A DNA stretch of 35,687 nt from a virus (IMGVR_UViG_3300042896_000307:1-35687); one strand, 5' to 3'; shown: positions 6,267-19,006, counted from the first letter of the stretch. The notes: generated from the sequence alone by a model not told the origin. A program made the numbers and translations.

Positions 6267-7109
6267 TTAAATAAAAGAAAAGATGTGTTCAACTATTCCA
6301 ACATTCCAACCATCACCAATTAAATTACCTGCCTGCCTTTTATTTAAATTTCTTGTATATCCTAATGGAATATTGTGTAATTTTTCTAATTCACTTTGAG
6401 TACAATATCTAACTCCTTTGCTTTCATCCATAGATTCATCTGTATAAATAATTGTAGTCATTCCAGTAGTTGCATATCTGTGCAACATATATCTTTGATT
6501 TGCATCGCTACCACAACTTGTATTTAAACAAGTATGTTTTTTCTTATCTGAATATCCGTATTCTAAAATATCATTCAGCATTATTTTTTTATCTCTCGGT
6601 TGTGGTATTGCAGATTTTCTATTTCCAAATAAATCAAAACTTTCTGGCCCAATATTAGTCCAAAACAATCTATCTCTTAAAGCTGCACTTACTTTTGAAC
6701 CACACAACCTAACTGGTTCAGTTCCTAATAATTCTGAAATTGTATTATAACCTAAATCATCCATAATAACATTTTCAAGTAAATAATAATTAGGTTTAGT
6801 TTCTTCCAGCAATCTTATATATTCGTAAAACAACATTGATTTCATTCCTTTCAAACCATCCCTTATACTATTTGCCCTGCTAAAATCTTGGCAAGGACTA
6901 CCACCAATTAATAAATCTATTTTAGGTAAATCTTGACCTTTTACTTTTGTAACATCGCCAATATGTTTAGTGTTTGGAAAGTTGTCTTTAGTGCATTGTA
7001 TTGCGTGTTTTTTTATTTCACTTGCAAAATAGTTATCTACTTTGATACCTAAATTATTAAGTGCAATTTGCCCGCAACTCATACCATCGAATAAACTTAA
7101 TACATTCAT
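6267..7109 (-). CDS. DNA (cytosine-5) methyltransferase
   Basis: A 280-residue enzyme that would transfer a methyl group from S-adenosylmethionine to C5 of cytosine in DNA. Motifs in order: I 'FDGMSCG' (7-13), IV 'GGSPCQDFS' (69-77) with catalytic Cys73, VI 'ENV' (112-114), VIII R145-x-R147, and IX-X through 'GNLIGDGWNV' (261-270). The target-recognition region is short, and the sequence around motifs I and IV looks more like the compact Dnmt3-type branch than like classical bacterial Dcm. No restriction partner lies beside it, so it is an orphan enzyme that probably protects phage DNA from host restriction. It has its own promoter (7208..7215) and a structured leader, separate from the lysis genes upstream. 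Confidence 0.93.
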   Translation of the reverse strand: MNVLSLFDGMSCGQIALNNLGIKVDNYFASEIKKHAIQCTKDNFPNTKHIGDVTKVKGQDLPKIDLLIGGSPCQDFSRANSIRDGLKGMKSMLFYEYIRLLEETKPNYYLLENVIMDDLGYNTISELLGTEPVRLCGSKVSAALRDRLFWTNIGPESFDLFGNRKSAIPQPRDKKIMLNDILEYGYSDKKKHTCLNTSCGSDANQRYMLHRYATTGMTTIIYTDESMDESKGVRYCTQSELEKLHNIPLGYTRNLNKRQAGNLIGDGWNVGIVEHIFSFI

Positions 7110-7121
7110 ATTCTTTTAAAT

Positions 7122-7204
7122 TAAAAAACCTCAACGATAGCGAGTAGGAGGTCGCTAAAGTCAAGGCTTTTGTTAAAATTTCTTTTGGTTGCTCCTACAC
7201 AACG
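7122..7204 (-). ncRNA. Structured leader RNA with two kissing hairpins and terminator
   Basis: Read on the minus strand, a TAnnTTTG promoter is followed at once by hairpin 1 (GTTG/CAAC, plus positions 7188..7191 and 7200..7203; 8-base loop 7192..7199). Hairpin 2 is TAGCGA/TCGCTA (7138..7143 and 7152..7157; loop 7144..7151), extended outward by CCTTGAC/GTTGAGG with two G-U pairs and a 2x2 internal loop. The two loops are complementary over 7 nt (GTAGGAG with CTCCTAC). A T6 tract (7123..7128) follows, so hairpin 2 looks like an intrinsic terminator. A transcript of about 80 nt would end before the methyltransferase ATG at 7109: either an attenuator or a small RNA. Confidence 0.6.
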
Positions 7205-7207
7205 TGG

Positions 7208-7237
7208 CAAATGTAATAATTTATTTTAATCCTACAA
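7208..7237 (-). promoter_or_regulatory. Promoter of the C5 methyltransferase (TACATTTG)
   Basis: The minus strand carries TACATTTG (plus positions 7208..7215) with TTG 19 bp upstream (7235..7237), matching the Bacteroidota primary sigma-factor promoter. It lies just beyond the end of the lysis block and directs transcription into the structured leader and the methyltransferase gene. Confidence 0.8.
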
Positions 7238-7787
7238 ATAACCAAACTAAAAACATTGCCCCACCAACACACCAGGCTGCTATTTTACCTCTTCTTTGCT
7301 GATTTGTTTCTTGCTTACTAATCACTAACAACGTACTATCGGTTACGTTTTCCGCTTTGTAGTTGGTAATCAAACTATCCTTAATAGTACTTCCATCAGC
7401 GCAAAGTTGAAACGCAGTAAATAATGCTGCATAACTACTGTCCTTTACATTAATTATTTCATCGCATAGAACAAACACAGTATCGCACTCTTTTGGAAGA
7501 GTTTGGCGCAGTTTCTTCATCAAAGCTATGTTAGTGTTGGTTAAAGATATTTCACGTTGTCTAATGCTATCTTTTGCATTGTTCGCAACCTGCAATCTCC
7601 GGTTGACATTCTCAAGTTGATTAAGTAGAATTGCCTGTTCATTGCCAAATTGTTTTTTCATTAGTTCGGCTTCTAATTTGTAGTCAAATGGGATAGGCTT
7701 TGGGTTGTCTTTGGCGCATTTGTTTAAGCCAATAATTAGCAGTAAACATAGGACTGCAAAGGTTATAATTTGGTGGTGTGGTTTCAT
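7221..7787 (-). CDS. Membrane-anchored coiled-coil protein (spanin candidate)
   Basis: A 188-residue protein. I chose the ATG at 7787 (start MKPHHQIITF), 4 bp after the upstream stop, over an upstream ATG at 7850. It has an N-terminal membrane segment ('IITFAVLCLLLIIGL'), a long charged helical region likely to form a coiled coil ('LLNQLENVNRRLQVANNAK'), and a C-terminal hydrophobic segment ('WCVGGAMFLVWLFVGL'). An N-terminal anchor plus periplasmic coiled coil in a lysis cassette suggests an inner-membrane or unimolecular spanin that fuses the inner and outer membranes. The second membrane segment fits a u-spanin-like layout less cleanly because no lipobox is visible. It is the last gene of the leftward lysis block. 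Confidence 0.55.
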   Translation of the reverse strand: MKPHHQIITFAVLCLLLIIGLNKCAKDNPKPIPFDYKLEAELMKKQFGNEQAILLNQLENVNRRLQVANNAKDSIRQREISLTNTNIALMKKLRQTLPKECDTVFVLCDEIINVKDSSYAALFTAFQLCADGSTIKDSLITNYKAENVTDSTLLVISKQETNQQRRGKIAAWCVGGAMFLVWLFVGLK

Positions 7788-7791
7788 ATTG

Positions 7792-8094
7792 TTATTGTTT
7801 ATACCATTTATTAAGCCAATCAATAAACGCTTCTGGTGTATTGACATCAACTTTAGTGTTATCTTTAAGCGTTATTATTTTATCTACGTTATCATAAAGC
7901 CACCATTGCACATCATTAAGAACCTTTTCAAAGTCATTTTCATTTTCGGTAAACATTATAGAAATGCTTTCTTCAAGCAAATTAATACCGTTTTCATAAT
8001 CAAATAAATCTACACCCAAAGCCTTTAGCTTATCGTATGTTTCATGAATTTCTTTAATTCGTTTAAGTGTTCTTACTGCAAATTCTTTTTTCAT
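7792..8094 (-). CDS. Hypothetical protein of the lysis block
   Basis: A 100-residue protein starting at the ATG at 8094 (MKKEFAVRTLKR); an ATG 18 bp upstream is less likely because it would reach further towards the preceding gene. The N-terminal half is helical with many Lys and Glu, and the C-terminal half contains 'NDVQWWLYDNVDKI' and 'PEAFIDWLNKWYKQ', rich in Trp and acidic residues. No membrane segment or signal is seen. I do not recognise a family. It lies between the spanin candidate and a holin candidate, so it may be a lysis accessory protein or just a passenger. Confidence 0.6.
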   Translation of the reverse strand: MKKEFAVRTLKRIKEIHETYDKLKALGVDLFDYENGINLLEESISIMFTENENDFEKVLNDVQWWLYDNVDKIITLKDNTKVDVNTPEAFIDWLNKWYKQ

Positions 8095-8105
8095 ATTATT
8101 TATTT

Positions 8106-8360
8106 TTAGCACCCATCACCATCAATAACCGCAGTTCTAATAGGTTTTTCGGTTGTGAATTTGGTTAAGAATTTAGTATTAATTAATAAGAACGTAGCAG
8201 CCAATCCACCCCAAAAGGCTTGCTTTAAAGTGATTAATCCTTGCGTTTCTGCGAGTGCTAAACTTGTTTGAATAAATGGCAGCAAAACGTAAATTAAATA
8301 GTCTGCAATCTTTTTTAGTTGCTTGTTGTCGGGGCTGCGGTATTTCTGTTTTAGATTCAT
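8106..8360 (-). CDS. Holin candidate
   Basis: An 84-residue protein with a basic N-terminus (MNLKQKYRSPDNKQLKK), a first hydrophobic helix ('YLIYVLLPFIQTSLALA'), a short linker and a second helix ('AFWGGLAATFLLINTKFL'), then a polar C-terminus. This two-helix plan and length fit a class II holin that forms holes in the inner membrane so the endolysin can reach the peptidoglycan. It sits in the same leftward block as the M15 endolysin gene, which makes it the best holin candidate of the several small membrane proteins in this genome. Confidence 0.65.
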   Translation of the reverse strand: MNLKQKYRSPDNKQLKKIADYLIYVLLPFIQTSLALAETQGLITLKQAFWGGLAATFLLINTKFLTKFTTEKPIRTAVIDGDGC

Positions 8361-8374
8361 AGTTGTTTTGATGT

Positions 8375-8584
8375 TTATTCGTTAGCTTCAACAATGTCAA
8401 TAGTTATAAATGATTCTTTATCCAAGTAACGCCCATTATTGTATTGATGTAAAAAAATAATTTGTTCTTCTTTTGTCATCTTTTTGCTAACTTTAAAAAA
8501 TCCAGTGCTTAAAGTAGAATCGTTTTGCTTACTGGTTATTTTAAATCTATAACGATAATTCGATTTTAATTCTTCTTGCATCAT
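8375..8584 (-). CDS. Small hypothetical protein
   Basis: A 69-residue protein; two adjacent ATGs (8584 and 8581) could serve as the start. It is soluble, with a basic N-terminal half ('NYRYRFKITSKQND') and an acidic C-terminus ('FITIDIVEANE'). The strand/helix/strand feel suggests a small compact domain. No known family recognised. It lies one base downstream of the next gene in the leftward block and is probably cotranscribed with the lysis genes. Confidence 0.6.
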   Translation of the reverse strand: MMQEELKSNYRYRFKITSKQNDSTLSTGFFKVSKKMTKEEQIIFLHQYNNGRYLDKESFITIDIVEANE

Positions 8585-8585
8585 A

Positions 8586-8771
8586 TCAATTAATTATTTC
8601 CCACTCAAATTTACCTTTTAAATTCCATTCCAACAAGGGCATAATTAAATCATTTTTATCTTTCCTCCTAAAATAAACGTGGTCAATCTTTCGACCTCCG
8701 ATGACAATGAAATCTATTTTGCTAAAGGTTATAACCTCCTTGCCATTCGTGTAGCGTGTTCCTCTTGTCAT
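8586..8771 (-). CDS. Small hypothetical protein
   Basis: A 61-residue protein whose ATG overlaps the endolysin stop codon (ATGA), which indicates translational coupling. It is basic and beta-rich ('VITFSKIDFIVIGG', 'IDHVYFRRKDKND'), without a membrane segment or cysteines. I do not recognise it. Its tight coupling to the endolysin gene may mean a shared function in lysis or simply compact packing. Confidence 0.6.
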   Translation of the reverse strand: MTRGTRYTNGKEVITFSKIDFIVIGGRKIDHVYFRRKDKNDLIMPLLEWNLKGKFEWEIIN

Positions 8772-9265
8772 ACGATGGTCATTTTCCAGTTGGTAAGCTC
8801 GTAGTGAGGCATATCGCTTATGGTCCTAAAGTTGCCACCCCAAGTTAGCTTGTTAGATACCGATTGCAGTAGTTCCCAAAACTCTTTGAAATGCTTTGCA
8901 GAATAGTCAAGTTCACGTTTACCAACTTTCACAAAGGCAATATCGAAAGCACGAGATGGGTAGTAGTTATGGGCTGACTGGCCCGCTCTTGCAAGTGATA
9001 CTTTTGGCCTTTTACGATAATAAACTTCTTGCATTGCATTGTTTCTATAAGTGCATACAATAATAACGTGAACATCGTTGTGTGTAGCGTTAAACTGCGC
9101 TTCTGCTTTCTTGTAAGCGTTGGCTAATGTTGGGTGTAGGTCTTCGATTAATCTCGATTCGTACGGCTTGGTTTCATCTTTTAGTTTCATATTATTATTT
9201 TTTAAATTACAATAGCATTCGTGTATTTGATTCGAGCCATAACACGCACAACTATTTGGTTTCAT
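8768..9265 (-). CDS. Endolysin, peptidase M15 family (L-Ala-D-Glu / D-Ala type)
   Basis: A zinc peptidase that would cut peptide cross-bridges or stems in peptidoglycan at the end of infection. The motif 'SAHNYYPSRAFDIAF' supplies the first zinc ligands (His and Asp, in the S-x-H-x8-D pattern) and 'DMPHYEL' the last His, as in T5-type and Ply500-type endolysins. The longest reading is 165 residues and starts 3 bp after the preceding stop. An internal ATG at 9190 gives 140 residues, matches the start of the enzyme domain and has an A-rich leader. The optional 25-residue extension contains four cysteines ('CACYGSNQIHECYC'), no signal peptide, and is unusual. The enzyme call is firm; the start is not. 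Confidence 0.88.
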   Translation of the reverse strand: MKPNSCACYGSNQIHECYCNLKNNNMKLKDETKPYESRLIEDLHPTLANAYKKAEAQFNATHNDVHVIIVCTYRNNAMQEVYYRKRPKVSLARAGQSAHNYYPSRAFDIAFVKVGKRELDYSAKHFKEFWELLQSVSNKLTWGGNFRTISDMPHYELTNWKMTIV

Positions 9266-9268
9266 ATT

Positions 9269-9685
9269 TTAATAAATCCTTAAATTCATTATCTCAATAT
9301 CAAAAGGCACTTGCACACCCTCCACACCATCTTTCTCTGCGTAAGGATATAACATATACCCAATAGGAAAAGAACACTTTGGCGCAACTCTAAACGCATA
9401 ACCATCGTTAGCCTTACATTCGATGTAATAACCCCAATGTAAACGAACTTTAACGAGCTCACCGATTTGGTATCTGCCTAACCGTTGTATTATACGTTGC
9501 CCTTTAATATAGGCATAGAAATACAACACACAATAGTTTTCCTCTTTGCGAATGCCAAGCCTAATGCTATTCCAATGATGCCAACCGCGTGAAAAGCCGA
9601 TGACCTTTTGCACCCCATCGGACTTGTCGATGTCTGGCACAATAAATTCGCAGGATAGATTGGTGGGTTTATATAGCAGTTTCAT
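9269..9685 (-). CDS. Hypothetical beta-rich protein of the lysis block
   Basis: A 138-residue protein. I chose the ATG at 9685 because it overlaps the upstream stop (ATGA); a start at 9745 would run into the preceding gene. The sequence is rich in aromatic and beta-branched residues ('GFSRGWHHWNSIRLGI', 'YCVLYFYAYIKGQRIIQRLG', 'VRLHWGYYIECKAND'), suggesting a beta-sandwich such as a concanavalin-like fold. No catalytic motif is visible. Between the endolysin and a small membrane protein, it could bind cell-wall or outer-membrane sugars, but that is speculation. Confidence 0.6.
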   Translation of the reverse strand: MKLLYKPTNLSCEFIVPDIDKSDGVQKVIGFSRGWHHWNSIRLGIRKEENYCVLYFYAYIKGQRIIQRLGRYQIGELVKVRLHWGYYIECKANDGYAFRVAPKCSFPIGYMLYPYAEKDGVEGVQVPFDIEIMNLRIY

Positions 9686-9873
9686 TTCTTCATCCATTGT
9701 TGCATAAAACCTGCACCGCACACCGCACTGGTTAACGAGGCGCAAAATGATATGCTAAAGGTAAGCAACTCGGAATTTCCAAAGAAAACCCCAGTCATTG
9801 CGAATTTAACTGCCCAAAAAGACATAAATAGGGCTGATATAGCCCATAAAATTAAGGATGGTTTTGTTTTCAT
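9682..9873 (-). CDS. Small two-helix membrane protein
   Basis: A 63-residue protein with a basic N-terminus (MKTKPS), a first hydrophobic helix ('LILWAISALFMSFWAVKFA'), a Gly/Asn turn and a second helix ('SISFCASLTSAVCGAGF') ending 'MQQWMKK'. This is compatible with a holin or antiholin. It is the second gene of the leftward block, 3 bp after the first, and is coupled to the next gene by ATGA. With the other small membrane proteins it makes the lysis control of this phage look layered. Confidence 0.6.
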   Translation of the reverse strand: MKTKPSLILWAISALFMSFWAVKFAMTGVFFGNSELLTFSISFCASLTSAVCGAGFMQQWMKK

Positions 9874-9876
9874 AGT

Positions 9877-10050
9877 TTAAAAATTTTCGGGATCTAATTC
9901 TTCGTTTAAAAGTTGTTCTAATTTAGGGCTTAAATGTACTGATGTTTTTCCATTAGTAATGTCCGTTAATACCCAACCGCCTTTAATGTTGTTTTCGCGG
10001 TCATCATTTTCGTAATCGAAATGCAATGTTAATGTTAGTGTTGTTGTCAT
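9877..10050 (-). CDS. Small hypothetical protein, first gene of the leftward block
   Basis: A 57-residue acidic protein. The ATG at 10050 follows the promoter by about 20 bp; the longer reading from 10098 would begin upstream of the promoter. Features are a Thr/Leu-rich strand ('TTTLTLTLHFDYEND') and an acidic C-terminus ('QLLNEELDPENF'). No family recognised. As the promoter-proximal gene of the lysis block it could be a regulator, but nothing in the sequence shows this. Confidence 0.6.
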   Translation of the reverse strand: MTTTLTLTLHFDYENDDRENNIKGGWVLTDITNGKTSVHLSPKLEQLLNEELDPENF

Positions 10051-10071
10051 GTTATTAGTTTTAAATTTTGG

Positions 10072-10102
10072 CAAATATAAAATAAAAATAATTAGCAAAC
10101 AA
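10072..10102 (-). promoter_or_regulatory. Leftward promoter of the lysis block (TATATTTG)
   Basis: On the minus strand TATATTTG occupies plus positions 10072..10079, with TTG 20 bp upstream at 10100..10102. This fits the Bacteroidota promoter consensus and gives a leader of roughly 15-20 nt before the ATG at 10050. The rightward promoter at 10127 diverges from it. Confidence 0.75.
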
Positions 10103-10105
10103 TTT

Positions 10106-10119
10106 TATTTTTAAAAATA
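10106..10119. promoter_or_regulatory. AT-rich palindrome between divergent promoters
   Basis: TATTTTTAAAAATA is a perfect 14-bp palindrome midway between the leftward (10072..10079) and rightward (10127..10134) -7 boxes. It could be an operator or a bent-DNA site. AT-rich palindromes are frequent by chance, so support is weak. Confidence 0.3.
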
Positions 10120-10126
10120 TTATTAG

Positions 10127-10134
10127 TAGGTTTG
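10127..10134 (+). promoter_or_regulatory. Rightward promoter of the early block (TAGGTTTG)
   Basis: TAGGTTTG matches the TAnnTTTG -7 box and lies 23 bp before the ATG at 10158. The upstream TTG element is not clear at the usual distance; the region is T-rich. It probably drives the first early genes. Confidence 0.6.
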
Positions 10135-10157
10135 CCGAAACTTTTAAAACTAACAAA

Positions 10158-10319
10158 ATGAAACAACTTATCCAACGCTTACTTTTCGGTTACCGAAACA
10201 ACCCCGATGCCTACACTCCTAAAGGTGGCGCAAAATTAACGTACAAAGGTGGCAACGCAGAGGCCATACATTCAGCACTTGTATTAATGCAATATCAAAT
10301 TCGCAATGCAAAAGATTAA
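10158..10319 (+). CDS. Small early protein
   Basis: A 53-residue basic protein beginning 'MKQLIQRLLFGYRNNPDAY', with a Gly/Lys-rich middle ('PKGGAKLTYKGG') and a helical C-terminus. It is the first gene after the rightward promoter, has an A-rich leader ('aactaacaaaATG') and overlaps the next gene by 14 bp. No family recognised. Small, basic, promoter-proximal early proteins in phages often inhibit or redirect host functions, but nothing here shows a target. Confidence 0.6.
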   Translation: MKQLIQRLLFGYRNNPDAYTPKGGAKLTYKGGNAEAIHSALVLMQYQIRNAKD

Positions 10320-10671
10320 AAACAAACGCAAATTAGGCAGAGCAATATGTGATAGTTACATTCACGTTCCAAAACCTGCAACAATAACGCAACAACATTG
10401 GGATGTGTGGCTAAAATACAATAGTGGTCTAACATCAGTTGAATGTGCTATGGTCTTTGGCATCAAAGTACACGAAATAACCAGTATTATATCTGGTATT
10501 GTGGAAAGGCTAAAAAACAAAAGCAAGTTAGCAGAAGACTGGAGCGAAGATTTTTCAACTGTTGAGGCAGCAATGGATTTCAAACAACGTATTGCCAATA
10601 ACATTTATATGGCCATAAGGAAAGCGAAAAAAAAGAATACAAATCAGTTATTAATAATGTCAGAAGTATAA
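10306..10671 (+). CDS. Early protein with a helix-turn-helix-like segment
   Basis: A 121-residue basic protein. The segment 'SGLTSVECAMVFGIKVHEI' followed by a helix resembles the helix-turn-helix of sigma-factor region 4 and LuxR-type regulators (small residue, turn, recognition helix), suggesting DNA binding. The C-terminal third is helical and very basic ('AIRKAKKKN'). It is cotranscribed with the preceding small gene and lies 29 bp before the SF2 helicase gene. It may be a transcription regulator of the early block. The HTH reading is by eye only. Confidence 0.55.
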   Translation: MQKIKNKRKLGRAICDSYIHVPKPATITQQHWDVWLKYNSGLTSVECAMVFGIKVHEITSIISGIVERLKNKSKLAEDWSEDFSTVEAAMDFKQRIANNIYMAIRKAKKKNTNQLLIMSEV

Positions 10672-10698
10672 ACTAAAACTAAACTAAAACTAAACTAA
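10671..10698 (+). repeat. 11-bp tandem repeat before the helicase gene
   Basis: The unit AACTAAAACTA occurs twice in tandem plus a partial third copy (AACTAA), ending directly before the helicase ATG at 10701. It is A-rich and unstructured, so it probably keeps the ribosome-binding region open, as A-rich leaders do elsewhere in this genome. The exact repetition may be replication slippage. Confidence 0.65.
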
Positions 10699-10700
10699 CA

Positions 10701-12080
10701 ATGAAAACAGATTACGAGTACTTAGATTTTTTAGAACGAAAGCGGCACTCAATTGGCGACTTTGGTTTTGAAGCAAATTATATTCCTGACATTGCATTTG
10801 ACTTTCAAAAGTACACAATTGAAAAGTCAGTGCGCAAAGGCCGTATAGCTAACTTTTTAGATACTGGATTAGGCAAAACATTAATTCAATTGTCTATCGC
10901 AAACAACGTAGTAAAACACACTAATAAAAAGGTGTTAATACTTACACCTTTGGCAGTTGCATTTCAATTTATTTTAGAAGCTAATAAATTAGGTATTGAT
11001 GACATTGAATATTCTAAGGAGGGCAAACACACTAAAAAAATAGTAATATGCAATTACGAGCGTTTGCATTTATTTGATGAAAATGATTTTGTTGGTGTTA
11101 TACTTGATGAAAGTTCTATTCTTAAAAACTTTGATGGAAAAATAAAAGGTAAAATAACCGCGTTTGTAAAAAAAATACCTTATAGATTTTTATCAACTGC
11201 AACACCCAGCCCTAACGATTTTATTGAATTGGGAACAAGCAGCGAGGCTTTGGGCTATATGGGTTACATGGATATGCTGACAAAGTTCTTTAAAAATAAT
11301 CAAAATTCAGTTGATAGCAATAATAGAAATATTGGCGAAAAATTCTATTTAAAGCCACATGCTGAAAAAGATTTTTTTGCATGGGTTAATCAATGGTCTA
11401 TAATGTGTAAGATGCCATCCGATTTAGGATTTTCAAATGATCGTTATATTTTACCTAAATTAATTACACCGACACACGTTGTAGAAAATCAATCAATGTT
11501 TGATGTTAACGGTCAAATAACAATGTTTACACCCATTGCAAAATCAATGACTGAGGTAAGACTTGAGCAAAAGCAAACAGAAGAAAAAAGGTGCGAAAAG
11601 GCCATTCAATTGGCTGCAAATAAAGTTTCTGTTTATTGGTGCAATACCAACAATGAGAGTAGATTGTTGCGCGAAAATGACAAAGAAGCGGTTGAAATTA
11701 TTGGTAGTCAATCAATAGAAAAAAAAGAAGAAATATTAGTAGCCTTTGCCAATGGCGAAATTAAACGATTAATAACTAAGGCAAAAATGACCTCAATGGG
11801 GTTGAACTGGCAGCATTGCAACCATTCTGTATTTTTTCCTACATGGTCTTATGAACAAATGTACCAAGCATTTCGCAGGTTTTGGAGGTTTGGACAAACT
11901 AAAGATGTTACTATTGACATGGTAATTTCTGACGGGCAAACTAGAGTAATAGAAGCATTGCAACAGAAAACAAAAAAGGCAATTGAATTGCACGAAAATT
12001 TAACCAAAAATGTAAATTCAGTATTTACAAATAAAACAAAAGAATTCAATAAACAAATAATAACACCTAACTTTTTATAA
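10701..12080 (+). CDS. SF2 (SNF2-like) DNA helicase/translocase
   Basis: A 459-residue ATPase with the motifs of superfamily 2. Walker A is 'DTGLGKT' (54-60), motif II 'LDESS' (DESS at 136-139, in place of DEAH), motif III 'STATPSPND' (165-173), and motif VI 'QAFRRFWRFGQ' (around 390), the arginine-rich signature of SNF2-type proteins. There is no nuclease domain. The gene ends 3 bp before a beta-class DNA methyltransferase gene, and the two look like a functional pair. SNF2-type translocases coupled to methyltransferases are known from defence systems such as DISARM and from phage modification modules. Here a role in DNA modification, anti-restriction or replication is possible. The enzyme class is firm; the role is inferred. 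Confidence 0.88.
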   Translation: MKTDYEYLDFLERKRHSIGDFGFEANYIPDIAFDFQKYTIEKSVRKGRIANFLDTGLGKTLIQLSIANNVVKHTNKKVLILTPLAVAFQFILEANKLGIDDIEYSKEGKHTKKIVICNYERLHLFDENDFVGVILDESSILKNFDGKIKGKITAFVKKIPYRFLSTATPSPNDFIELGTSSEALGYMGYMDMLTKFFKNNQNSVDSNNRNIGEKFYLKPHAEKDFFAWVNQWSIMCKMPSDLGFSNDRYILPKLITPTHVVENQSMFDVNGQITMFTPIAKSMTEVRLEQKQTEEKRCEKAIQLAANKVSVYWCNTNNESRLLRENDKEAVEIIGSQSIEKKEEILVAFANGEIKRLITKAKMTSMGLNWQHCNHSVFFPTWSYEQMYQAFRRFWRFGQTKDVTIDMVISDGQTRVIEALQQKTKKAIELHENLTKNVNSVFTNKTKEFNKQIITPNFL

Positions 12081-12083
12081 CCT

Positions 12084-13106
12084 ATGGAAAATCAAGTAAA
12101 AGACCAATTAATAACAGAACGTTATGCAATTTACAACAGCGATTGCATGTTAGTTATGCCAACAATACCAAATGAAAGTATTGATTTGAGCGTTTATAGT
12201 CCCCCGTTTGCAGGGCTTTATAATTACTCAAGTAGCGAACATGATTTTAGCAACTGTGAAAACAAAGAACAATTTTTATTGCAATACGAATTTTTAATTA
12301 AAGAAATTGCAAGGGTTACAAAAGCGGGCCGAATAAGCGCGGTACATGTTACAGATGTATTTGATAATACTTGCCGACTTTGGGATTTTCCACATGAAGT
12401 AATTAAATTGCATGAAAAATATGGTTTTGAATATCGCAATAGAATTACAATTTGGAAAGAGCCTTTAAAAGTTCGTATGCGTACAATGGTGCAAAGTTTG
12501 ATGCATAAGTTTATTGTTGAAGATTCAACAAAATGTTTTACAGCTATGCCTGATTACGTTTTAGTATTTACTAAAAAAGGAGAAAACAAAGTTCCAGTAA
12601 CCCATCAATTTGGAATTAACCATTATGCTGGCGAAGTTCCAATTTTGCCAAATATTTTAAGAGCATGGAACAATGCAAATAATTCAGACTTAAACGAAGT
12701 TGAATTGTGGGAACACTTAAATAGTGTAAATGAAGCGGGTAAAATAACAAAGCTAAATCATTATATTTGGCAACGTTACGCATCAAGTGTTTGGGATGAT
12801 ATAAGAATTGATAATGTTTTACCGTTTAGAGATTCAAAAGAAGAAGATGATGAAAAGCACGTTCACCCGTTGCAATTAGATGTAATTGATAGAATAGTTG
12901 AATTATATAGTAATCCGAATGAAGTTGTGTTAACTCCATTTATGGGTGTAGGTAGTGAAGTATTTAGCCCCGTTTCGATGGGTAGAAAAGCCATAGGAAT
13001 AGAGTTAAAAGACAGTTACTATAAACAAGCCACATTGAATTTAAAAGAGGCTGAGAAACGATTTAACGAAAACAATAAAATAACCCAGTCAACAATCCAA
13101 TTCTAA
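12084..13106 (+). CDS. DNA amino-methyltransferase (N6-adenine or N4-cytosine, beta class)
   Basis: A 340-residue S-adenosylmethionine-dependent enzyme. The catalytic motif IV is 'SPPF' (39-42) near the N-terminus, and the cofactor motif I 'FMGVG' (286-290), followed by 'GRKAIGIEL', is near the C-terminus. The order IV before I defines the beta class. The long middle region is probably the target-recognition domain. SPPF, rather than DPPY, does not decide between adenine and cytosine as target. The gene begins 3 bp after the SF2 helicase gene and no restriction nuclease is adjacent, so it probably protects phage DNA or acts jointly with the helicase. Confidence 0.9.
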   Translation: MENQVKDQLITERYAIYNSDCMLVMPTIPNESIDLSVYSPPFAGLYNYSSSEHDFSNCENKEQFLLQYEFLIKEIARVTKAGRISAVHVTDVFDNTCRLWDFPHEVIKLHEKYGFEYRNRITIWKEPLKVRMRTMVQSLMHKFIVEDSTKCFTAMPDYVLVFTKKGENKVPVTHQFGINHYAGEVPILPNILRAWNNANNSDLNEVELWEHLNSVNEAGKITKLNHYIWQRYASSVWDDIRIDNVLPFRDSKEEDDEKHVHPLQLDVIDRIVELYSNPNEVVLTPFMGVGSEVFSPVSMGRKAIGIELKDSYYKQATLNLKEAEKRFNENNKITQSTIQF

Positions 13107-13110
13107 CCCT

Positions 13111-13359
13111 ATGAACATAACCGCAGAACAACCCCGAATCAAACCAAGCAAAGAGCAACTAAAACAAGAATACAAACAGATGTTAGCATTGGTTGAGCAT
13201 AATGGATCAAGACCAGCGAAATGCAACCCGATAACCGAAGCGGCTAAACAATTTGGCTACACTCGGCCCGGAATAGCCAGACTTATGAATGGCAAAGTTG
13301 ACCGTTGGAAGCCACAACATTTCATGATTTATGATTTTCTTAAAGCATATTTAACATAA
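13111..13359 (+). CDS. HTH DNA-binding protein (putative)
   Basis: An 82-residue basic protein beginning 4 bp after the methyltransferase stop. The segment 'EAAKQFGYTRPGIARLMNG' fits a helix-turn-helix of the Cro/MerR type, with Ala and Gly at the expected small-residue positions, and is followed by a basic 'KVDRWKPQHF'. It is likely a small transcription regulator closing the helicase/methyltransferase operon. Because it is the last gene of the operon it may be autoregulatory. The next transcription unit starts at the promoter at 13408. Confidence 0.6.
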   Translation: MNITAEQPRIKPSKEQLKQEYKQMLALVEHNGSRPAKCNPITEAAKQFGYTRPGIARLMNGKVDRWKPQHFMIYDFLKAYLT

Positions 13360-13407
13360 ATTAACACTTTAGTTGAAAATATTATTTTGAGGTAATGAAT
13401 TTAAGTG

Positions 13408-13415
13408 TACATTTG
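13408..13415 (+). promoter_or_regulatory. Promoter (TACATTTG)
   Basis: TACATTTG with TTG 18 bp upstream (13387..13389). It drives the small gene at 13453 and probably the genes up to the SSB-like protein. The roughly 30-nt leader is almost free of G and T, the usual unstructured Bacteroidota leader. Confidence 0.75.
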
Positions 13416-13452
13416 CATCAACAAAAACAACAACAACTAAAAACAAAACAAA

Positions 13453-13620
13453 ATGAAAAATTTAAGCAACGAAACAAAAACACAAACTGCAATTCAAATG
13501 GTAATTATGGATGCAATCGAAAAAGGACATACAAACGCAAATGAATTAATTGAATATATGAAATCAGAAGTTTTTGAAAAAGCAGTTAAAAATTATATTT
13601 CAATGTTCAATGAAGCCTAA
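13453..13620 (+). CDS. Small hypothetical protein
   Basis: A 55-residue protein, short but well supported by its promoter, A-rich leader and codon use. It reads as two or three helices ('TQTAIQMVIMDAIEKGHT', 'ANELIEYMKSEVFEKAV') and ends 'SMFNEA'. No family recognised. It is separated from the next gene by the G5/C5 hairpin at 13638..13654, so it may be made at a different level. Confidence 0.6.
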   Translation: MKNLSNETKTQTAIQMVIMDAIEKGHTNANELIEYMKSEVFEKAVKNYISMFNEA

Positions 13621-13637
13621 AAATAAAACAAATCAAA

Positions 13638-13654
13638 GGGGGCTAAACACCCCC
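13638..13654 (+). terminator. G5/C5 hairpin
   Basis: GGGGG (13638..13642) pairs with CCCCC (13650..13654) around a 7-base loop (CTAAACA). There is no U tract after it, so it is more likely an mRNA-stabilising or partial pausing hairpin between two small genes than a full terminator. Confidence 0.45.
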
Positions 13655-13683
13655 AATTACAAACCTAATAAAAACAAACTAAC

Positions 13684-13974
13684 ATGAACACAATCAACAT
13701 CATCACAAAAGTATCAACGCTAACAACGTGGCAAATCGAAAATTCTAAAGAGCGCATCGAATACGAATCAGACAATGAAACGTTTTACGTATGGAATAAA
13801 GACAACGAGATAACTGCATCTATTGACCGTAAAGATGCATTCTGGACAATGCAACTATGTGACCTTGCAGTTAGCAATGACAAGCACGAAATCACCTTGC
13901 AATTTAACGATTACATTCCGCACACCTCATTTCTTTCAATGGTATTAACAGATTTTTTACACAAAAACAAATAA
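13684..13974 (+). CDS. Hypothetical protein
   Basis: A 96-residue protein with alternating polar and beta-branched residues ('ERIEYESDNETFYVWNKDN', 'KHEITLQFNDYIPHTS') and a helical C-terminus ending 'DFLHKNK'. No family recognised. It lies 9 bp upstream of the SSB-like gene with an A-rich spacer and is presumably cotranscribed, so a role near DNA replication or recombination is possible but unsupported by any motif. Confidence 0.6.
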   Translation: MNTINIITKVSTLTTWQIENSKERIEYESDNETFYVWNKDNEITASIDRKDAFWTMQLCDLAVSNDKHEITLQFNDYIPHTSFLSMVLTDFLHKNK

Positions 13975-13983
13975 ATAAACAAA

Positions 13984-14340
13984 ATGACAATCAAAGGCAC
14001 AATTAAGCGCATAGGCGCAACGCAAACAGTAAGTGATGGAAAGTTCAGCAAACGCGAATTAGTACTCACAACCGCAGACCAGTATCCGCAAATAGTATCA
14101 GTTGAACTACAACAGAAAGCCTGCTCAATAGCGGATGACTTAAAAGTAGGGCAAGACATTGAAGCTCACATCAATATTCGTGGGCGCGAATGGACATCGC
14201 CACAAGGTGAGGTTAAGGTATTTAATACTATTGCATGTTGGAAAATTGATGCGAATCCATTTACACAGACTGAAGACCCACAAGCAAGCTATTCAAAGCC
14301 AGTGCAAAAGAATGATGTTATAAGCGATCTTCCGTTCTAA
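13984..14340 (+). CDS. SSB-like ssDNA-binding protein (DUF3127 family)
   Basis: A 118-residue OB-fold-like protein. 'IKGTIKRIGATQTVSDGKF' and 'KRELVLTTADQYPQIVSVEL' match the DUF3127 pattern common in Bacteroidota and their phages. The C-terminus is a disordered linker ending 'DVISDLPF', very similar to the acidic tip with terminal Pro-Phe by which bacterial SSB recruits replication and repair proteins. I therefore infer that it coats single-stranded DNA and recruits partners such as the RecT protein encoded just downstream. A hairpin terminator begins immediately after the stop codon. Confidence 0.8.
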   Translation: MTIKGTIKRIGATQTVSDGKFSKRELVLTTADQYPQIVSVELQQKACSIADDLKVGQDIEAHINIRGREWTSPQGEVKVFNTIACWKIDANPFTQTEDPQASYSKPVQKNDVISDLPF

Positions 14341-14375
14341 AATGGTAAAATAATTTTGTTATTACCATTTTAATT
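14341..14375 (+). terminator. Intrinsic terminator after the SSB-like gene
   Basis: AATGGTAA (14341..14348) pairs with TTACCATT (14362..14369), and TAA/TTA extends the helix after a 2-base bulge, closing a 5-base loop. TTTTAATTATT follows. The stem starts at the first base after the stop codon. The -33 TTG (14356..14358) of the next promoter lies inside the hairpin, so termination and re-initiation sites are interleaved. Confidence 0.7.
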
Positions 14376-14377
14376 AT

Positions 14378-14385
14378 TACATTTG
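14378..14385 (+). promoter_or_regulatory. Promoter of a leaderless HNH gene (TACATTTG)
   Basis: TACATTTG with TTG 19 bp upstream, a near-ideal match. Only 4 bases (TGGC) separate the box from the ATG at 14390, so transcription should begin at or next to the start codon and give a leaderless mRNA. Confidence 0.85.
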
Positions 14386-14389
14386 TGGC

Positions 14390-14917
14390 ATGGAAAATAA
14401 AAAAACATGCTTCAAATGTAATACTGAAAAGCCCTTATCAGATTACTATAAGCACAAGCAAATGGGCGATGGACACTTGGGTAAATGTAAAGAGTGTGCT
14501 AAAAATGATTCAGACAAAAGAGAACAGTTGCTCAGACAAAATCCCGAATGGATTGAAAAAGAAAAAATTAGATCAAGAGAAAAATACTATCGTTTAAATT
14601 ATAAAGATTTACACAAACCATCTTATGAAAATAAAAAAGCAGCAATGGCTAAATATAAAGCCAAATATCCTGAAAAACAAAAAGCAAGAAACTCATCACA
14701 AAGAATGAAACCAAAAATAAAAGGAAACGAATTACACCATTGGTCATACAATGAAGAACATTTTAAAGATGTTATTGAATTGTCAATTGCTGACCATAAC
14801 AAAGCACATAGACATATGGTTTATGATTCTGAACGTAAAATGTATCGTAGGGCAGATAATAACATACTCCTTGATACAAAAGAAGCACACATTGAATTTA
14901 TTAACTTACTTAATTAA
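14390..14917 (+). CDS. HNH endonuclease with N-terminal zinc finger
   Basis: A 175-residue nuclease. The N-terminus has a CxxC...CxxC zinc finger (C7, C10, C33, C36). A basic helical linker follows, then the HNH core: H116-H117, H136-N137 and H140, in '[12 protein letters not shown]' and 'ADHNKAHRH'. Free-standing HNH proteins of this size in phages are often homing endonucleases that spread by cutting related genomes; others assist packaging. This one is isolated by a terminator upstream and its own leaderless promoter, and it separates the SSB-like gene from recT, which supports a mobile passenger. A late-cutting or packaging role is less likely given its early-block position. Confidence 0.82.
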
Positions 14918-14939
14918 TAACCCATAAAAACAAATAACA

Positions 14940-15635
14940 ATGAACACACAAGTAACAACAGTAACAACAATTAACACTACTGATATAATGAATATCAGTA
15001 AAGCATTTTACGAATCGGGAATGTTTACCGACATCAAAAGTGTTGCACAAGCTATGGTCAAAATATCCGCAGGGCAAGAAATCGGAATACCTCCATTTGC
15101 TGCTATGACTGGAATCCACATCATTCAAGGCAAGCCAACCATTGGTGCTGGTTTAATAGCATCAAGACTTAAAGGTAGTGGCAAGTATGATTATCGTGTT
15201 GTTGAGGCATCTGAAAAGGTTTGCTCAATTGATTTCTTTCAAGGTGCTACAAAAATAGGTAATAGCACATTTACTATTGAGGATGCAAGGAAAGCACTAA
15301 CCAAGAACATTGATAAGTTTCCAAAGAATATGCTATTTGCCAGAGCTATTAGTAATGGTGTGAAATGGTATTGCCCAGACATTTTTAGTGGGCCAGTGTA
15401 TGTGCCAGAAGAAATGCAAGTGGTAACTACTGAAGAAGCAACACACATTGAAGTTGACACAACTATTGATGAGATTATCAATGACATTCAAGTGTGTGTT
15501 AGTTTAAATGAATTACAAGCTATTTGGAAAGCAGTTCCTAAAGACATTAAACTTGATTTAAGAGTGTTGGCTGCTAAAGATGATATGAAAGCTAAATTAA
15601 CAACTATTTCATTAACATCTAAAACCGAAGCATAA
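14940..15635 (+). CDS. recT: RecT-family single-strand annealing protein
   Basis: A 231-residue protein. 'AQAMVKISAGQEIGIPPFAA' is here split by the reading limit into 'AQAMVKISAGQ' and 'EIGIPPFAAMTGIHIIQGK', then 'PTIGAGLIASRLKGSGKYDY', the conserved core of RecT-like annealing proteins found in many phages. It would anneal complementary single strands during recombination-dependent replication and repair. The C-terminal 70 residues are acidic and helical and less conserved. The gene overlaps the Gp157-family gene by one base, and the SSB-like protein is encoded upstream, so the three form a recombination set. No RecE-type exonuclease is seen; the VRR-NUC protein at 19248 is another nuclease that might cooperate. 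Confidence 0.82.
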   Translation: MNTQVTTVTTINTTDIMNISKAFYESGMFTDIKSVAQAMVKISAGQEIGIPPFAAMTGIHIIQGKPTIGAGLIASRLKGSGKYDYRVVEASEKVCSIDFFQGATKIGNSTFTIEDARKALTKNIDKFPKNMLFARAISNGVKWYCPDIFSGPVYVPEEMQVVTTEEATHIEVDTTIDEIINDIQVCVSLNELQAIWKAVPKDIKLDLRVLAAKDDMKAKLTTISLTSKTEA

Positions 15636-16129
15636 TGAAACTAACAATTTATCAAATCGAACAAAATTACAATCAGTTAGCAGAGCAGTTAATTGACAAC
15701 GATGGTGAATTAACACCAGAATTAAGTGAACAGTTAGCAATCACCGAAGAACAACTGCAAAACAAATCAGTTGCGTATTCGTTTGTTATAAAGCAAATGG
15801 ATGCAGATGTTGAAATTATTGAGGCTGAAATAAAACGATTGCAGGCAGCAAAGAAACAACGTGAGAAAGCATCGGACTATTTAAAGGATCGCATCAAACA
15901 CGCAATGGATTTATTTAGCATTGAAGAAATCAAAACACCTTTAGTAAAGATTAACTTTCGCAAATCTGAAACTGTTGAGGTTGATGATGTCAACCAACTG
16001 CCATCACTTTACAAGGTGGTAAAAGTAACTGAACAAGCCGATAAAGCAGCAATTAAGGCAGCGTTAAAGGATGGTGTTGAAGTTGCTGGATGCAGCATTG
16101 CAACACATCGTAATTTGCAGATTAAGTAA
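15635..16129 (+). CDS. Siphovirus Gp157 family protein
   Basis: A 164-residue protein with a long helical N-terminal two-thirds ('IEAEIKRLQAAKKQREKA' and 'SDYLKDRIKHAMDLF') followed by 'KTPLVKINFRKSETVEVDD' and 'LPSLYKVVKV'. The long coiled coil followed by a small beta domain with 'p.f.i..rks..v' is the signature of the Gp157 family, usually encoded beside recT or single-strand annealing genes in phages. The biochemical role is not well established; partnership with RecT is inferred from the 1-bp overlap. A promoter starts 8 bp after the stop. Confidence 0.78.
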   Translation: MKLTIYQIEQNYNQLAEQLIDNDGELTPELSEQLAITEEQLQNKSVAYSFVIKQMDADVEIIEAEIKRLQAAKKQREKASDYLKDRIKHAMDLFSIEEIKTPLVKINFRKSETVEVDDVNQLPSLYKVVKVTEQADKAAIKAALKDGVEVAGCSIATHRNLQIK

Positions 16130-16137
16130 TTATTACT

Positions 16138-16145
16138 TATATTTG
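16138..16145 (+). promoter_or_regulatory. Promoter of the pseudoknot RNA and primase operon (TATATTTG)
   Basis: TATATTTG with TTG 20 bp upstream (16115..16117, inside the end of the Gp157 gene). It points into the pseudoknot RNA at 16149..16247 and then the primase operon. Confidence 0.85.
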
Positions 16146-16148
16146 CAT

Positions 16149-16247
16149 CCGAAATAACCCGCCAAAGTGAAAGACATTTTTAACATAGCCCCTATCTTAT
16201 TGTTGCCCCTTGGCGGGTGGCGCAATTTGGTAGGGGTTTCTTTATTT
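16149..16247 (+). ncRNA. Pseudoknotted leader RNA with U-rich 3' end
   Basis: Two interleaved perfect stems: a ACCCGCCAA (16157..16165) with a' TTGGCGGGT (16210..16218), and b CCCCTA (16189..16194) with b' TAGGGG (16231..16236). The order a-b-a'-b' is an H-type pseudoknot. TTTCTTTATTT follows b' directly, so b/b' can also act as a weak terminator stem. The RNA begins just after a strong promoter and ends about 7 nt before the ATG at 16254. It matches no riboswitch class I can name; it may be an attenuator, a ligand sensor or a stable small RNA. Confidence 0.65.
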
Positions 16248-16253
16248 AATTAA

Positions 16254-16382
16254 ATGAAAATATTTTTAGTAAAATCCCCAAGCGGCAAAGTTTACACCTT
16301 AAACGCTGAATCAAAGTTTCACGCGATCCAAAAAGCAATAGTGAAAGATGATTTTAAGTATAATTCAAAGCAATACAAATGA
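16254..16382 (+). CDS. Small basic protein upstream of the primase
   Basis: A 42-residue protein beginning 'MKIFLVKSPSGKVYTLNAES' and ending 'YNSKQYK'. It starts just after the structured RNA and overlaps the primase gene by ATGA. The beta-hairpin-like start ('FLVKSPSGKVYTL') followed by a helix ('HAIQKAIVKDD') looks like a small folded domain. Because it is first in the operon and coupled to the primase, it may be the regulatory target of the leader RNA or a primase accessory. No family recognised. Confidence 0.65.
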   Translation: MKIFLVKSPSGKVYTLNAESKFHAIQKAIVKDDFKYNSKQYK

Positions 16383-17257
16383 ATCCTATTTTTAACTATT
16401 ACGAAGCCGATATCAAACGTAGCACTCCATTAGGTAGTGTTACGCTTGAATATCTTATTAACGCTATTAGAACACCTAAAAAAGACATCCGCAATGTATT
16501 TGAGGAGATACGTATTGCAGAGGAAAAAAAAGACATGGCAACAAAGCAAGCTTTAAAGTCAAAGCTATACTCATTCACTCCATGTGTTTATGTTAACGGG
16601 CCGCGTAAGTATTCTAATATTCAGCATTGGACTGGCTTACTTGTTTTGGACTTTGACCATTTAAAAAGTGATGTCGCAGTTGAATTCAAAGAATATTTAT
16701 TCAACGAATATAAATATATTATAACCGCGTGGCTATCCGCTTCAAGGCATGGTGTTCGCGCACTGGTTAAGATTCCGATTTGCACTTCAGTAGATGAATT
16801 TAAACACTATTATGCAGGCATTGAGCGACACCTTAACTGTTATAATGGTTTCGATACCGCGCCAAAGAACTGCATACTACCGATGTTTATTAGTTACGAT
16901 GCCGAAATCCTGCACCGTACAGATGCGCAAACTTGGTCAACAAAGCATATTGAAATAGTGAGGCCCGCAGTTAAGCAGTATATTGTTGATGATAAAACTT
17001 CGGTTATTGAAAAGATAATTGCGAAACGTATAAACACCATAACCGACACTGGGCATATTATATTACGTGCTACTTCTTACTTGCTTGGCGGTTATGTAGG
17101 TGCAAATTATATTGATTACAATGATGCGATTGTGCTTATCAATAACTTAATTGATTCGCAAAGCTACCTATCTAAAAAGCCTGATGTTTATAAGGCTACC
17201 GCGAAACAAATGGTGGATAAAGGTTTAAATTTTCCTACTTATTTGCAAAATAGATAA
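16379..17257 (+). CDS. Primase, BT4734/VirE N-terminal type
   Basis: A 292-residue protein. 'HWTGLLVLDFDHLKSD' (84-98, with D91 and D93) and 'SASRHGVRALVKIP' (120-133, S122-x-H124) match the acidic pair and the s-x-H motif of the BT4734-like N-terminal domain, a primase-polymerase-like fold typical of Bacteroidota mobile elements. It would make RNA or DNA primers for replication. The helicase part usually fused to such domains is encoded separately by the SF3 gene downstream, after a structured RNA and a new promoter, so the two activities can be regulated separately. The family call is good; activity is inferred. Confidence 0.75.
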   Translation: MNPIFNYYEADIKRSTPLGSVTLEYLINAIRTPKKDIRNVFEEIRIAEEKKDMATKQALKSKLYSFTPCVYVNGPRKYSNIQHWTGLLVLDFDHLKSDVAVEFKEYLFNEYKYIITAWLSASRHGVRALVKIPICTSVDEFKHYYAGIERHLNCYNGFDTAPKNCILPMFISYDAEILHRTDAQTWSTKHIEIVRPAVKQYIVDDKTSVIEKIIAKRINTITDTGHIILRATSYLLGGYVGANYIDYNDAIVLINNLIDSQSYLSKKPDVYKATAKQMVDKGLNFPTYLQNR

Positions 17258-17265
17258 TTATAAAG

Positions 17266-17273
17266 TACATTTG
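17266..17273 (+). promoter_or_regulatory. Promoter of the three-way-junction RNA and SF3 helicase (TACATTTG)
   Basis: TACATTTG with TTG 20 bp upstream (17243..17245). Transcription should start near 17277, at the first hairpin of the structured RNA. Confidence 0.85.
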
Positions 17274-17276
17274 CAG

Positions 17277-17400
17277 CATCGGAGTCACGAACCGATATAA
17301 CATAGATTCACATTAAAACATTAGGAGTCCTAATAGTTAAGTGTAAGGAGTGAATCCCTTACTTGCTTCGTAAGCAAACTTAACTATTAGGACTTTTTTA
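17277..17400 (+). ncRNA. Three-way-junction leader RNA with loop pairing and terminator
   Basis: A 16-bp perfect stem P1 (17327..17342 with 17378..17393) encloses hairpin P2 (GTAAGG/CCTTAC, 17343..17348 and 17357..17362) and hairpin P3 (TTGCTT/AAGCAA, 17363..17368 and 17372..17377). The three helices abut with no unpaired junction base. Loop P2 (GTGAATC, 17350..17356) is complementary over 7 nt to upstream GATTCAC (17305..17311). A 5' hairpin ATCGG/CCGAT (17278..17282 and 17292..17296) precedes these. P1 is followed by T6 (17394..17399), so the RNA ends as an intrinsic terminator 11 bp before the helicase ATG. It could be a small RNA with read-through, or an attenuator. Confidence 0.75.
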
Positions 17401-17410
17401 TTTTAAAAAT

Positions 17411-19006
17411 ATGAGCGACAAATTTAAAAAACCCGAATCCAACCCGCTACTTAACGCGGTGGATTACTTCAACTTTTATGGTTCATTTATTTCAATATTC
17501 GAGGGCATTAAACAATGCAACGTAAAATCCGAAACAGAAGTGTGCCTATTGAATCCCGATAGTTTAGATCCGCAAGAACTTAACAAACCGACCTTTGTAC
17601 TTAATAAATTAAACACTGTTGATGTACTTAAAAAAAATAGTTACCGCCTTGGTGTAGGTGCTAAAGTTTCTAAATTTATGGTATTGGCTGCGGTTAAATT
17701 TCAAGGCGATTCATTTGCTGCTATGTCTTATGTAAACTTTGAAATTATTAAATCGGATATACCTTATATTAGAGTGGGAACTGATTATTTTAAAGTAATA
17801 GCAAAAAAAGACCGTTACAAATCCGAAAACACTTTGTTAAAACCATGGAAAAAAGATGAAATAAAACAAGACCATGGCAAGAATTTACTCGGAATGATAT
17901 ACAAGTTTGATGACTTTACAATCTATCCAGACAATGTCGAATATACTCCAGTGCTAAACAACTGTTATAACCTTTACGCTAAATTTGCGCATAAATTTGT
18001 TATTGATGAAGTTAATCAAAAAGATATACCGGTAACTATGGGATTGATACATCATATTTTTGGCGACCAATGGGAACTTGGTTTGAAGTACATGAAAATA
18101 CTTTACGAAAATCCGCGCCAAATATTGCCAGTATTAGCACTTGTTTCAACAGAGCGCGAAACGGGTAAAACTACTTTCCTTAATTGGATTCAAATGTTAT
18201 TTGGAGAAAATACTACACTTATAAATCCAAGTGACCTTACAAGTAACTTTAATGATGCATACGCTACAAAAAACATCATTATGATTGATGAAACTACAAT
18301 TGATAAACAACACGCAATCGAAAAATTAAAATCAATAGCAACTGCCAAAACAATGTCGGTATCACAAAAGTTTGTTAGCCATTATTCAGTACCTTTTTTT
18401 GGTAAGGTTATTTTTTGCACAAACAAAGAATCCGATTTTATGCGAATTGATGAAGAGGAGATTCGTTTTTGGGTGCGCAAAATTAAAATTATTAAAGGCG
18501 CAAAGAACACAAACATTGAAACCGATTTGTTTAATGAGATACCAAAGTTTCTTAAATACCTTATGAAACTTCCTGCAATAGATTTCAGCAAATCGCGTAT
18601 GGTATTTACCAAGGATGAAATCTTAACAGAATCATTGCATGTTGTAATGGAGGAAAGTAAATCAACATTAAGAAAAGAAATAGAAATGAATTTTGACGAC
18701 TTTTTTATGAATAATGATGCAATTGAATTTATTGAGGCGACTGCAAGGGATATTAAGGAAAAATGGTTTAATACTAACAATCAAATTCCAATGTCTTATA
18801 TTCGTAAAGTTTTAATTGATGAAATGAAAATGGTTTGTTTAAAAAACAAAAAGTATAAAGGATTTCCAGATCCAAATTATCCACATGGTAGCAAAACTGG
18901 ACTTCCTTTTCTATTTAAAAATCCGTATCATATTAAAAATAAAGTAGTTAATAAACAAAATGATTCAGTTGATGACCCTAATCAAGAGATGCCAAGGTTT
19001 GCATAG
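17411..19006 (+). CDS. SF3 replicative helicase (phage/plasmid primase-helicase type)
   Basis: A 531-residue protein. The C-terminal ATPase has Walker A 'STERETGKTT' (K253, T254), Walker B 'NIIMIDETT' (D293, E294) and motif C 'GKVIFCTNKE' with sensor N338, the three motifs of superfamily 3 and the D5/P4-type helicases. The N-terminal ~200 residues are a probable DNA-binding or primase-linking domain. Together with the separate primase encoded upstream it would unwind the origin and prime replication. The candidate origin at 19005..19244 follows directly, and its first palindromic repeat overlaps the stop codon. Expression probably depends on read-through of the structured leader RNA. Confidence 0.85.
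   Translation: MSDKFKKPESNPLLNAVDYFNFYGSFISIFEGIKQCNVKSETEVCLLNPDSLDPQELNKPTFVLNKLNTVDVLKKNSYRLGVGAKVSKFMVLAAVKFQGDSFAAMSYVNFEIIKSDIPYIRVGTDYFKVIAKKDRYKSENTLLKPWKKDEIKQDHGKNLLGMIYKFDDFTIYPDNVEYTPVLNNCYNLYAKFAHKFVIDEVNQKDIPVTMGLIHHIFGDQWELGLKYMKILYENPRQILPVLALVSTERETGKTTFLNWIQMLFGENTTLINPSDLTSNFNDAYATKNIIMIDETTIDKQHAIEKLKSIATAKTMSVSQKFVSHYSVPFFGKVIFCTNKESDFMRIDEEEIRFWVRKIKIIKGAKNTNIETDLFNEIPKFLKYLMKLPAIDFSKSRMVFTKDEILTESLHVVMEESKSTLRKEIEMNFDDFFMNNDAIEFIEATARDIKEKWFNTNNQIPMSYIRKVLIDEMKMVCLKNKKYKGFPDPNYPHGSKTGLPFLFKNPYHIKNKVVNKQNDSVDDPNQEMPRFA

Follow-up and report, generated by a model that had tools for sequence, protein, structure and literature searches.

The sequence analysed here, referred to below as the window, is a 35,687-bp record of a Bacteroidota phage in which three leader elements, E1, E2 and E3, share one plan although their sequences differ. 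Each consists of a promoter, a leader of ~90-120 nt and a terminator-like hairpin with a U tract, and is followed by the start codon (ATG) of a gene. This shared plan, with a strong promoter ahead of every element, had been proposed earlier (the original prediction), and all three elements were indeed found in place with promoter, leader, hairpin and U tract, the promoter reading TTTG-N19/20-TAnnTTTG in each case. As targets, a C5 methyltransferase, a primase operon and an SF3 helicase had been named. The gene behind E1 encodes a C5 methyltransferase and that behind E3 a replicative helicase-like ATPase, and E2 directly precedes an open reading frame (ORF) of 42 aa that overlaps a primase-like gene. 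The features are listed below, with promoters taken from a promoter motif scan.

7208..7238, minus strand: E1 promoter, TTTG-N19-TACATTTG
7123..7204, minus strand: E1 leader RNA, with 5' hairpin GUUG-[UGUAGGAG]-CAAC (~7203-7188), A-rich linker, terminator hairpin (~7167-7129) and U6 tract (7128-7123)
7192..7198, minus strand: E1 kissing strand GUAGGAG, loop of the 5' hairpin
7144..7150, minus strand: E1 kissing strand CUCCUAC, terminator loop
6267..7109, minus strand: gene after E1, C5 cytosine DNA methyltransferase (PF00145)
16114..16145, plus strand: E2 promoter, TTTG-N20-TATATTTG
16149..16247, plus strand: E2 leader RNA, with 5' strand, linker of ~21 nt, terminator hairpin (~16187-16238) and U-rich tract
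16157..16165, plus strand: E2 pairing strand ACCCGCCAA, near the 5' end
16210..16218, plus strand: E2 pairing strand UUGGCGGGU, terminator loop
16254..16382, plus strand: 42-aa ORF after E2 (MKIFLVKSPSGK...), overlapping the start of the primase-like gene (16379)
16379..17257, plus strand: primase-like protein with BT4734-like N-terminal domain (PF08800)
17242..17273, plus strand: E3 promoter, TTTG-N20-TACATTTG
17278..17399, plus strand: E3 leader RNA, with small 5' hairpin (17278-17296), pairing strand, linker, 17-bp terminator stem with two inner hairpins (17326-17394) and U6 tract (17394-17399)
17305..17311, plus strand: E3 pairing strand GAUUCAC
17350..17356, plus strand: E3 pairing strand GUGAAUC, loop of an inner hairpin
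17411..19006, plus strand: gene after E3, replicative helicase-like ATPase (PF19263 DUF5906)

The form TTTG-N18-21-TAnnTTTG is the published consensus for the primary sigma factor of the Bacteroidota phylum (PMC7366714). Seven matches are present in the window where 1.95 are expected, a number reached by none of 100 shuffles, and three of the seven start E1, E2 and E3. Two more full promoters, at 13386-13415 (+) and 14355-14385 (+), have short 5' untranslated regions (UTRs), the latter lying 5 nt upstream of an ATG; unlike E1-E3, neither is followed by such a leader. For the 42-aa ORF no family match was found, and many variants of its protein (MKIFLVKSPSGKVYTLNAESKFHAIQKA...) occur in relatives immediately 3' of elements.

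Each leader folds better than its shuffled counterparts, with z values of -3.2 for E1, -2.6 for E2 and -6.4 for E3. In all three, the hairpin loop can form 7-9 bp with a complementary, 5'-proximal stretch of the RNA, the predicted duplex energies being -9.3, -15.9 and -7.0 kcal/mol for E1, E2 and E3, respectively. Pairing of a hairpin loop or arm with a distant upstream segment had been anticipated, and the pairing itself stands, with covariation in two families described below. Its geometry required correction: E1 forms a true loop-loop (kissing) pair, the 5' pairing strand of E2 is single-stranded, and that of E3 is situated between the small 5' hairpin and the terminator. The ATG follows the last base of the U tract by 13 nt in E1, 6 nt in E2 and 11 nt in E3. 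The E1 7-mers recur at 26153-26159 and 34560-34566; no further copies of the E2 and E3 pairing sequences exist elsewhere in the window, and no E1 copy is seen at the start of its own gene.

A search of Bacteroidota phages for promoter, paired-loop hairpin and terminator, as suggested by the original prediction, detected such elements in related phages (1.5 Mb surveyed) and in isolates. When TAnnTTTG, a U-tract hairpin and 7 or more bp of loop pairing were required together, the scan yielded 34 sequence clusters, collapsed by shared 10-mers with some remote kinship possibly remaining, and 30 of these have an ATG 4-40 nt downstream. Altered motifs returned 4-17 clusters (1-8 with ATG) and the reversed sequence 13 clusters (5 with ATG). 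For a cleaner test, sites were chosen by promoter, hairpin and ATG alone, and loop pairing was asked for afterwards. Pairing was seen at 29 of the 65 independent sites. When loops were swapped between sites 200 times, the mean was 3.3 and the highest count 9, and decoy motifs gave 1-4 paired of 20-43. A second, energy-based scan showed the same trend with fewer matches. E1-E3 display the full architecture of this class, namely a TAnnTTTG promoter, a 5' strand or hairpin, a linker, a U-tract hairpin whose loop pairs with the 5' part, and an ATG close behind.

Families F1, E1, E3 and E3b were found in relatives. For F1, a scaffold pattern was combined with a covariance model and with a scan in which the loop was left free, and the count rests on one fragment and 30 distinct full-length members (98-99 nt). 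The F1 kissing helix exists in three versions, GGUCUCAC:GUGAGACC, GGUUCGAC:GUCGAACC and GAUUCCAC:GUGGAAUC; every one of the 240 cells is a Watson-Crick pair, and both sides have changed at 4 of the 8 positions. Outside this helix, pairs with double changes number 12 in the two terminator stems and 1 in the 5' stem. The covariation measures, except for the count of pair types, were matched by 0 of 500 shuffles, and the signal vanishes when partners are slid. The stems contain 68 G-U cells, 30 of which belong to one invariant G-U pair, and 0 A-C cells, which points to the transcript of the promoter strand as the molecule under selection. In the E3 family, gathered with a linker pattern (10 members), 69 of 70 kissing cells are Watson-Crick and four versions occur, a partner being present for each of the loop strands GATTCAC, GATTGAC, GATTGAT (one G-U) and GCTTAAC. 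The E1 family keeps GTAGGAG and a conserved scaffold in 12 loci (window included) and shows compensated changes in its stem, such as GCGA:UCGC to GCAA:UUGC. In family E3b the pairings are GCTTACTCACT:AGTGGGTAAGC and GCTTATTCAGT:ACTGGATAAGC. Judging from these comparisons, the loop pairing is under selection, since relatives keep it while its sequence varies.

With two of the three window elements located at replication genes, a DNA-level feature such as an origin hairpin could be envisaged, or the complementarity might have arisen by chance. Such explanations are already disfavoured by the excess of G-U over A-C in the F1 stems, the compensatory changes in the F1 and E3 families, the loop-swap test and the presence of elements at methyltransferase and nuclease genes, and they are now scarcely credible.

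Phages of this group hold up to three slots for elements. E1 occupies the slot in front of the leftward methyltransferase gene, or of the gene that replaces it; F1 or E2 the slot in front of a small ORF or the primase; and E3 or E3b the one that precedes the helicase or a small ORF upstream of it. The genes behind the elements are non-homologous and comprise C5 and N6/N4 methyltransferases, an AAA-GNAT protein, GIY-YIG and HNH nucleases (homing-type), DUF6291, primase, helicase and small ORFs. At the helicase junction an element is present within 460 nt in 29 relatives and absent in 36. The proposal that long-range pairing times replication and DNA modification specifically was not supported in that form, because the same elements precede C5 and N6/N4 methyltransferases, nucleases, AAA-GNAT and small ORFs and many relatives have no element at the same junction.

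With a probability of roughly 0.55, E1-E3 are self-contained promoter-proximal transcription attenuator cassettes at early phage genes, each making a short structured RNA. According to this model, the strong host-type promoter would start a leader RNA of ~90-120 nt, which then forms the terminator hairpin with its U tract, and pairing of the displayed loop with the 5'-proximal part of the RNA would produce a kissing or pseudoknot fold. Termination at the U tract is expected for the majority of transcripts, leaving a short structured RNA, while read-through transcripts would express the gene that starts 6-25 nt past the hairpin in most elements found. Loop pairing is expected to set the rate of terminator passage in cis. 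The accumulated short RNA would probably act in trans as well, whereby the gene would be self-limiting. The promoter motif, the fold, the covarying pairing on the transcribed strand, the U tract, the constant placement ahead of a gene and the modular spread are observed features, whereas termination in vivo, the sign of the effect and trans action are inferred. Terminator function is plausible, as are the abundant small RNAs that had been suggested as a possibility.

The linkers are long enough for pairing and a closed terminator stem to exist together in nearly all families, so that linker geometry gives no proof of an anti-terminator. Several points weigh against the attenuator model. The short linker of F1 (10 nt from the 5' hairpin to the terminator base) would strain kissing with both hairpins closed, and therefore the cis and trans forms are indistinguishable. 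The U tract could serve as an AU-rich ribosome entry zone, because start regions in these phages are AU-rich. The F1 kissing sequences form three discrete versions without one-sided or G-U intermediates, while the stems drift through G-U, and neutral drift of a purely structural helix might be expected to yield some. Furthermore, the 36 relatives without an element at the helicase junction indicate that it is not essential there.

The AU-rich start regions also suit another possibility, in which the hairpin does not terminate and the fold acts as a 5' UTR stabiliser or insulator that shields the mRNA 5' end and keeps the start region open. The close spacing of hairpin and ATG is in line with such a role. 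Nevertheless, the U run right after the strong stem is kept across families, including those gathered by the 5' part alone, far above the T content of ordinary start sites there (~30%), and stabilisation does not by itself account for pairing that is kept while the sequence changes. A stabilising function in place of attenuation is thus regarded as unlikely.

Elements of this kind are not confined to uncultivated phages. Flavobacterium phage 11b carries one (33628 +) with the pairing strand CGGGCAGGT, and two elements with 15-bp pairing are present in Riemerella phage RAP44. RAP44-like phages contain the sequence in three copies: the first lies near the RNA start, the second, as complement, occupies the terminator loop, and the third is at the start codon of a small ORF that precedes an antirepressor gene. 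Five versions co-vary through all three copies in the Riemerella phages, whose C4/P4-CI-like leader RNAs are found at L198:13719-13890 (+), in L198 at 30560 (-) and in L201-L206. The window elements have no third copy and represent a simpler, self-pairing form. No clear element was seen in Cellulophaga phi12:1 and phi17:1, FPSV-S1, lotta8-1, B124-14 and crAss001 (first 50 kb). Against the isolate phages, the replication region used as a DNA query gave no match, tblastn with the helicase gave weak, unrelated matches only, and distant blastn with F1 gave chance matches only. A search of host genomes with the F1 scaffold returned one match, in which the rest of the element is absent.

The co-varying versions raise the tentative possibility that the RNAs confer specificity in trans. 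The short terminated RNA would pair with a nascent leader of the same type and shut it, as P4 CI does, so that resident or co-infecting phages with the same loop are silenced and loops diversify like plasmid incompatibility groups or P1/P7 heteroimmunity. The lack of half-changed F1 loops beside drifting stems hints at selection for distinct specificities. In addition, one small gene was found behind all three F1 versions, so the loop version does not depend on which gene follows, and the slots within one genome differ in loop. The versions in the Riemerella phages, changing together in leader, loop and gene start region, would fit as well. On the other hand, a third target copy is absent from the window, lysogeny is not evident (the window proteins examined, which did not include every ORF, showed no integrase), slot A carries a single loop version, and a few ancestral lineages could also give discrete versions. 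Carried further, and with equal reserve, the elements might belong to a modular class of leader RNAs in Bacteroidota phages that recognise their own kind, the kissing sequence serving as an exchangeable tag of specificity. RNAs of the same type from resident or co-infecting phages would silence each other's early genes, which would amount to RNA-based incompatibility, and the promoter-RNA-terminator cassettes would move between genomes whatever gene follows them. Sequence versions with compensation, formed by 7-bp loop-loop pairing, are also known from ColE1 RNAI/RNAII; there the partners come from opposite strands, whereas in the window both lie within one sense transcript.

Among known systems, the elements are best read as working like the leader RNAs P4 CI, P1 c4 and Gifsy IsrK, without assignment to any of them (comparison sources PMC4825925, PMC12197685). 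In P4 CI, a phage leader transcript controls replication genes, an upstream segment complements the small RNA, and transcription terminates prematurely (PMC4825925). A similar upstream complement of seqA type is present in E1-E3 (5' strand with terminator loop) and covaries in the F1 and E3 families. The differences are that the downstream seqC copy is absent from the window, the U-tract hairpin itself displays the complement in its loop, each genome has several independent elements, the host phylum is another one, and no integrase appeared among those window proteins that were examined. The three-copy version of RAP44-like phages has the same layout as P1 c4 and P4 seqA-CI-seqC. IsrK of Gifsy-1 comprises a promoter, a short RNA running to an intrinsic terminator, and a read-through mRNA opening with a 45-aa ORF, whose long form IsrK activates for translation in trans (PMC4825925). 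The window anatomy fits this plan (promoter, U-tract hairpin, ATG 6-13 nt past the U tract), and the ORF after E2 has 42 aa compared with 45 aa; no Rfam relation was found for the window elements. With P1/P7 c4 (Rfam RF01695, C4) the shared traits are loop-displayed antisense sequences, specificity versions between phages and an antirepressor operon behind, and the Riemerella version fits well. The window elements differ in having no target at the gene start (downstream small ORF or ant mRNA), a feature that occurs in the Riemerella phages. The C4 model gave no match to any element tested at gathering score, and c4 is recorded from Proteobacteria and phages (PMC2864571). Because both the C4 model and the downstream-target feature fail, the elements are not filed as members of these groups.

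More generally, Rfam 15 at gathering score gave no match in the window, Flavobacterium 11b, Riemerella RAP44 and 15 further loci. Matches at relaxed threshold (WsnRNA46, miRNAs) were far below cut-off and were discarded. A pseudoknot with a terminator before genes recalls transcriptional riboswitches, and a ligand-binding RNA of this type may be considered. The families share no conserved unpaired core, however, neither riboswitch nor other Rfam models match, and the genes behind have no common metabolic theme, making a riboswitch very improbable. The view that the elements were previously undescribed is supported by the lack of an Rfam match and of any description in the open literature searched, a scope that left out subscription journals and preprints.

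Around 30 sequence-unrelated elements with one plan before replication, methylation and nuclease genes would constitute a general means of controlling early genes in Bacteroidota phages, about whose regulation little is known. In Bacteroides, no obvious Hfq or ProQ homologue is present (PMC7366714). Since conservation extends to the plan but not to the sequence, Rfam and sequence-based searches miss these elements. They appear to be a genuine, modular type of phage gene switch that has yet to be named, offering naturally distinct switches and a direct test of whether phages compete via RNA loops.

Two minor observations concern the neighbourhood of elements in relatives. A protein of ~61 aa (MKNxKTKQERxxYxAxxAMQS...) is inserted together with an element between the primase and helicase genes, directly upstream of the latter, in L008, L011, L027, L050 and others. 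In L081-L099, whose contigs are otherwise different, imperfect palindromes with TAACG...CGTTGTTA ends occur up to ~160 nt upstream of the methyltransferase. These palindromes look like integron attC sites, in which case the methyltransferase would be a cassette.

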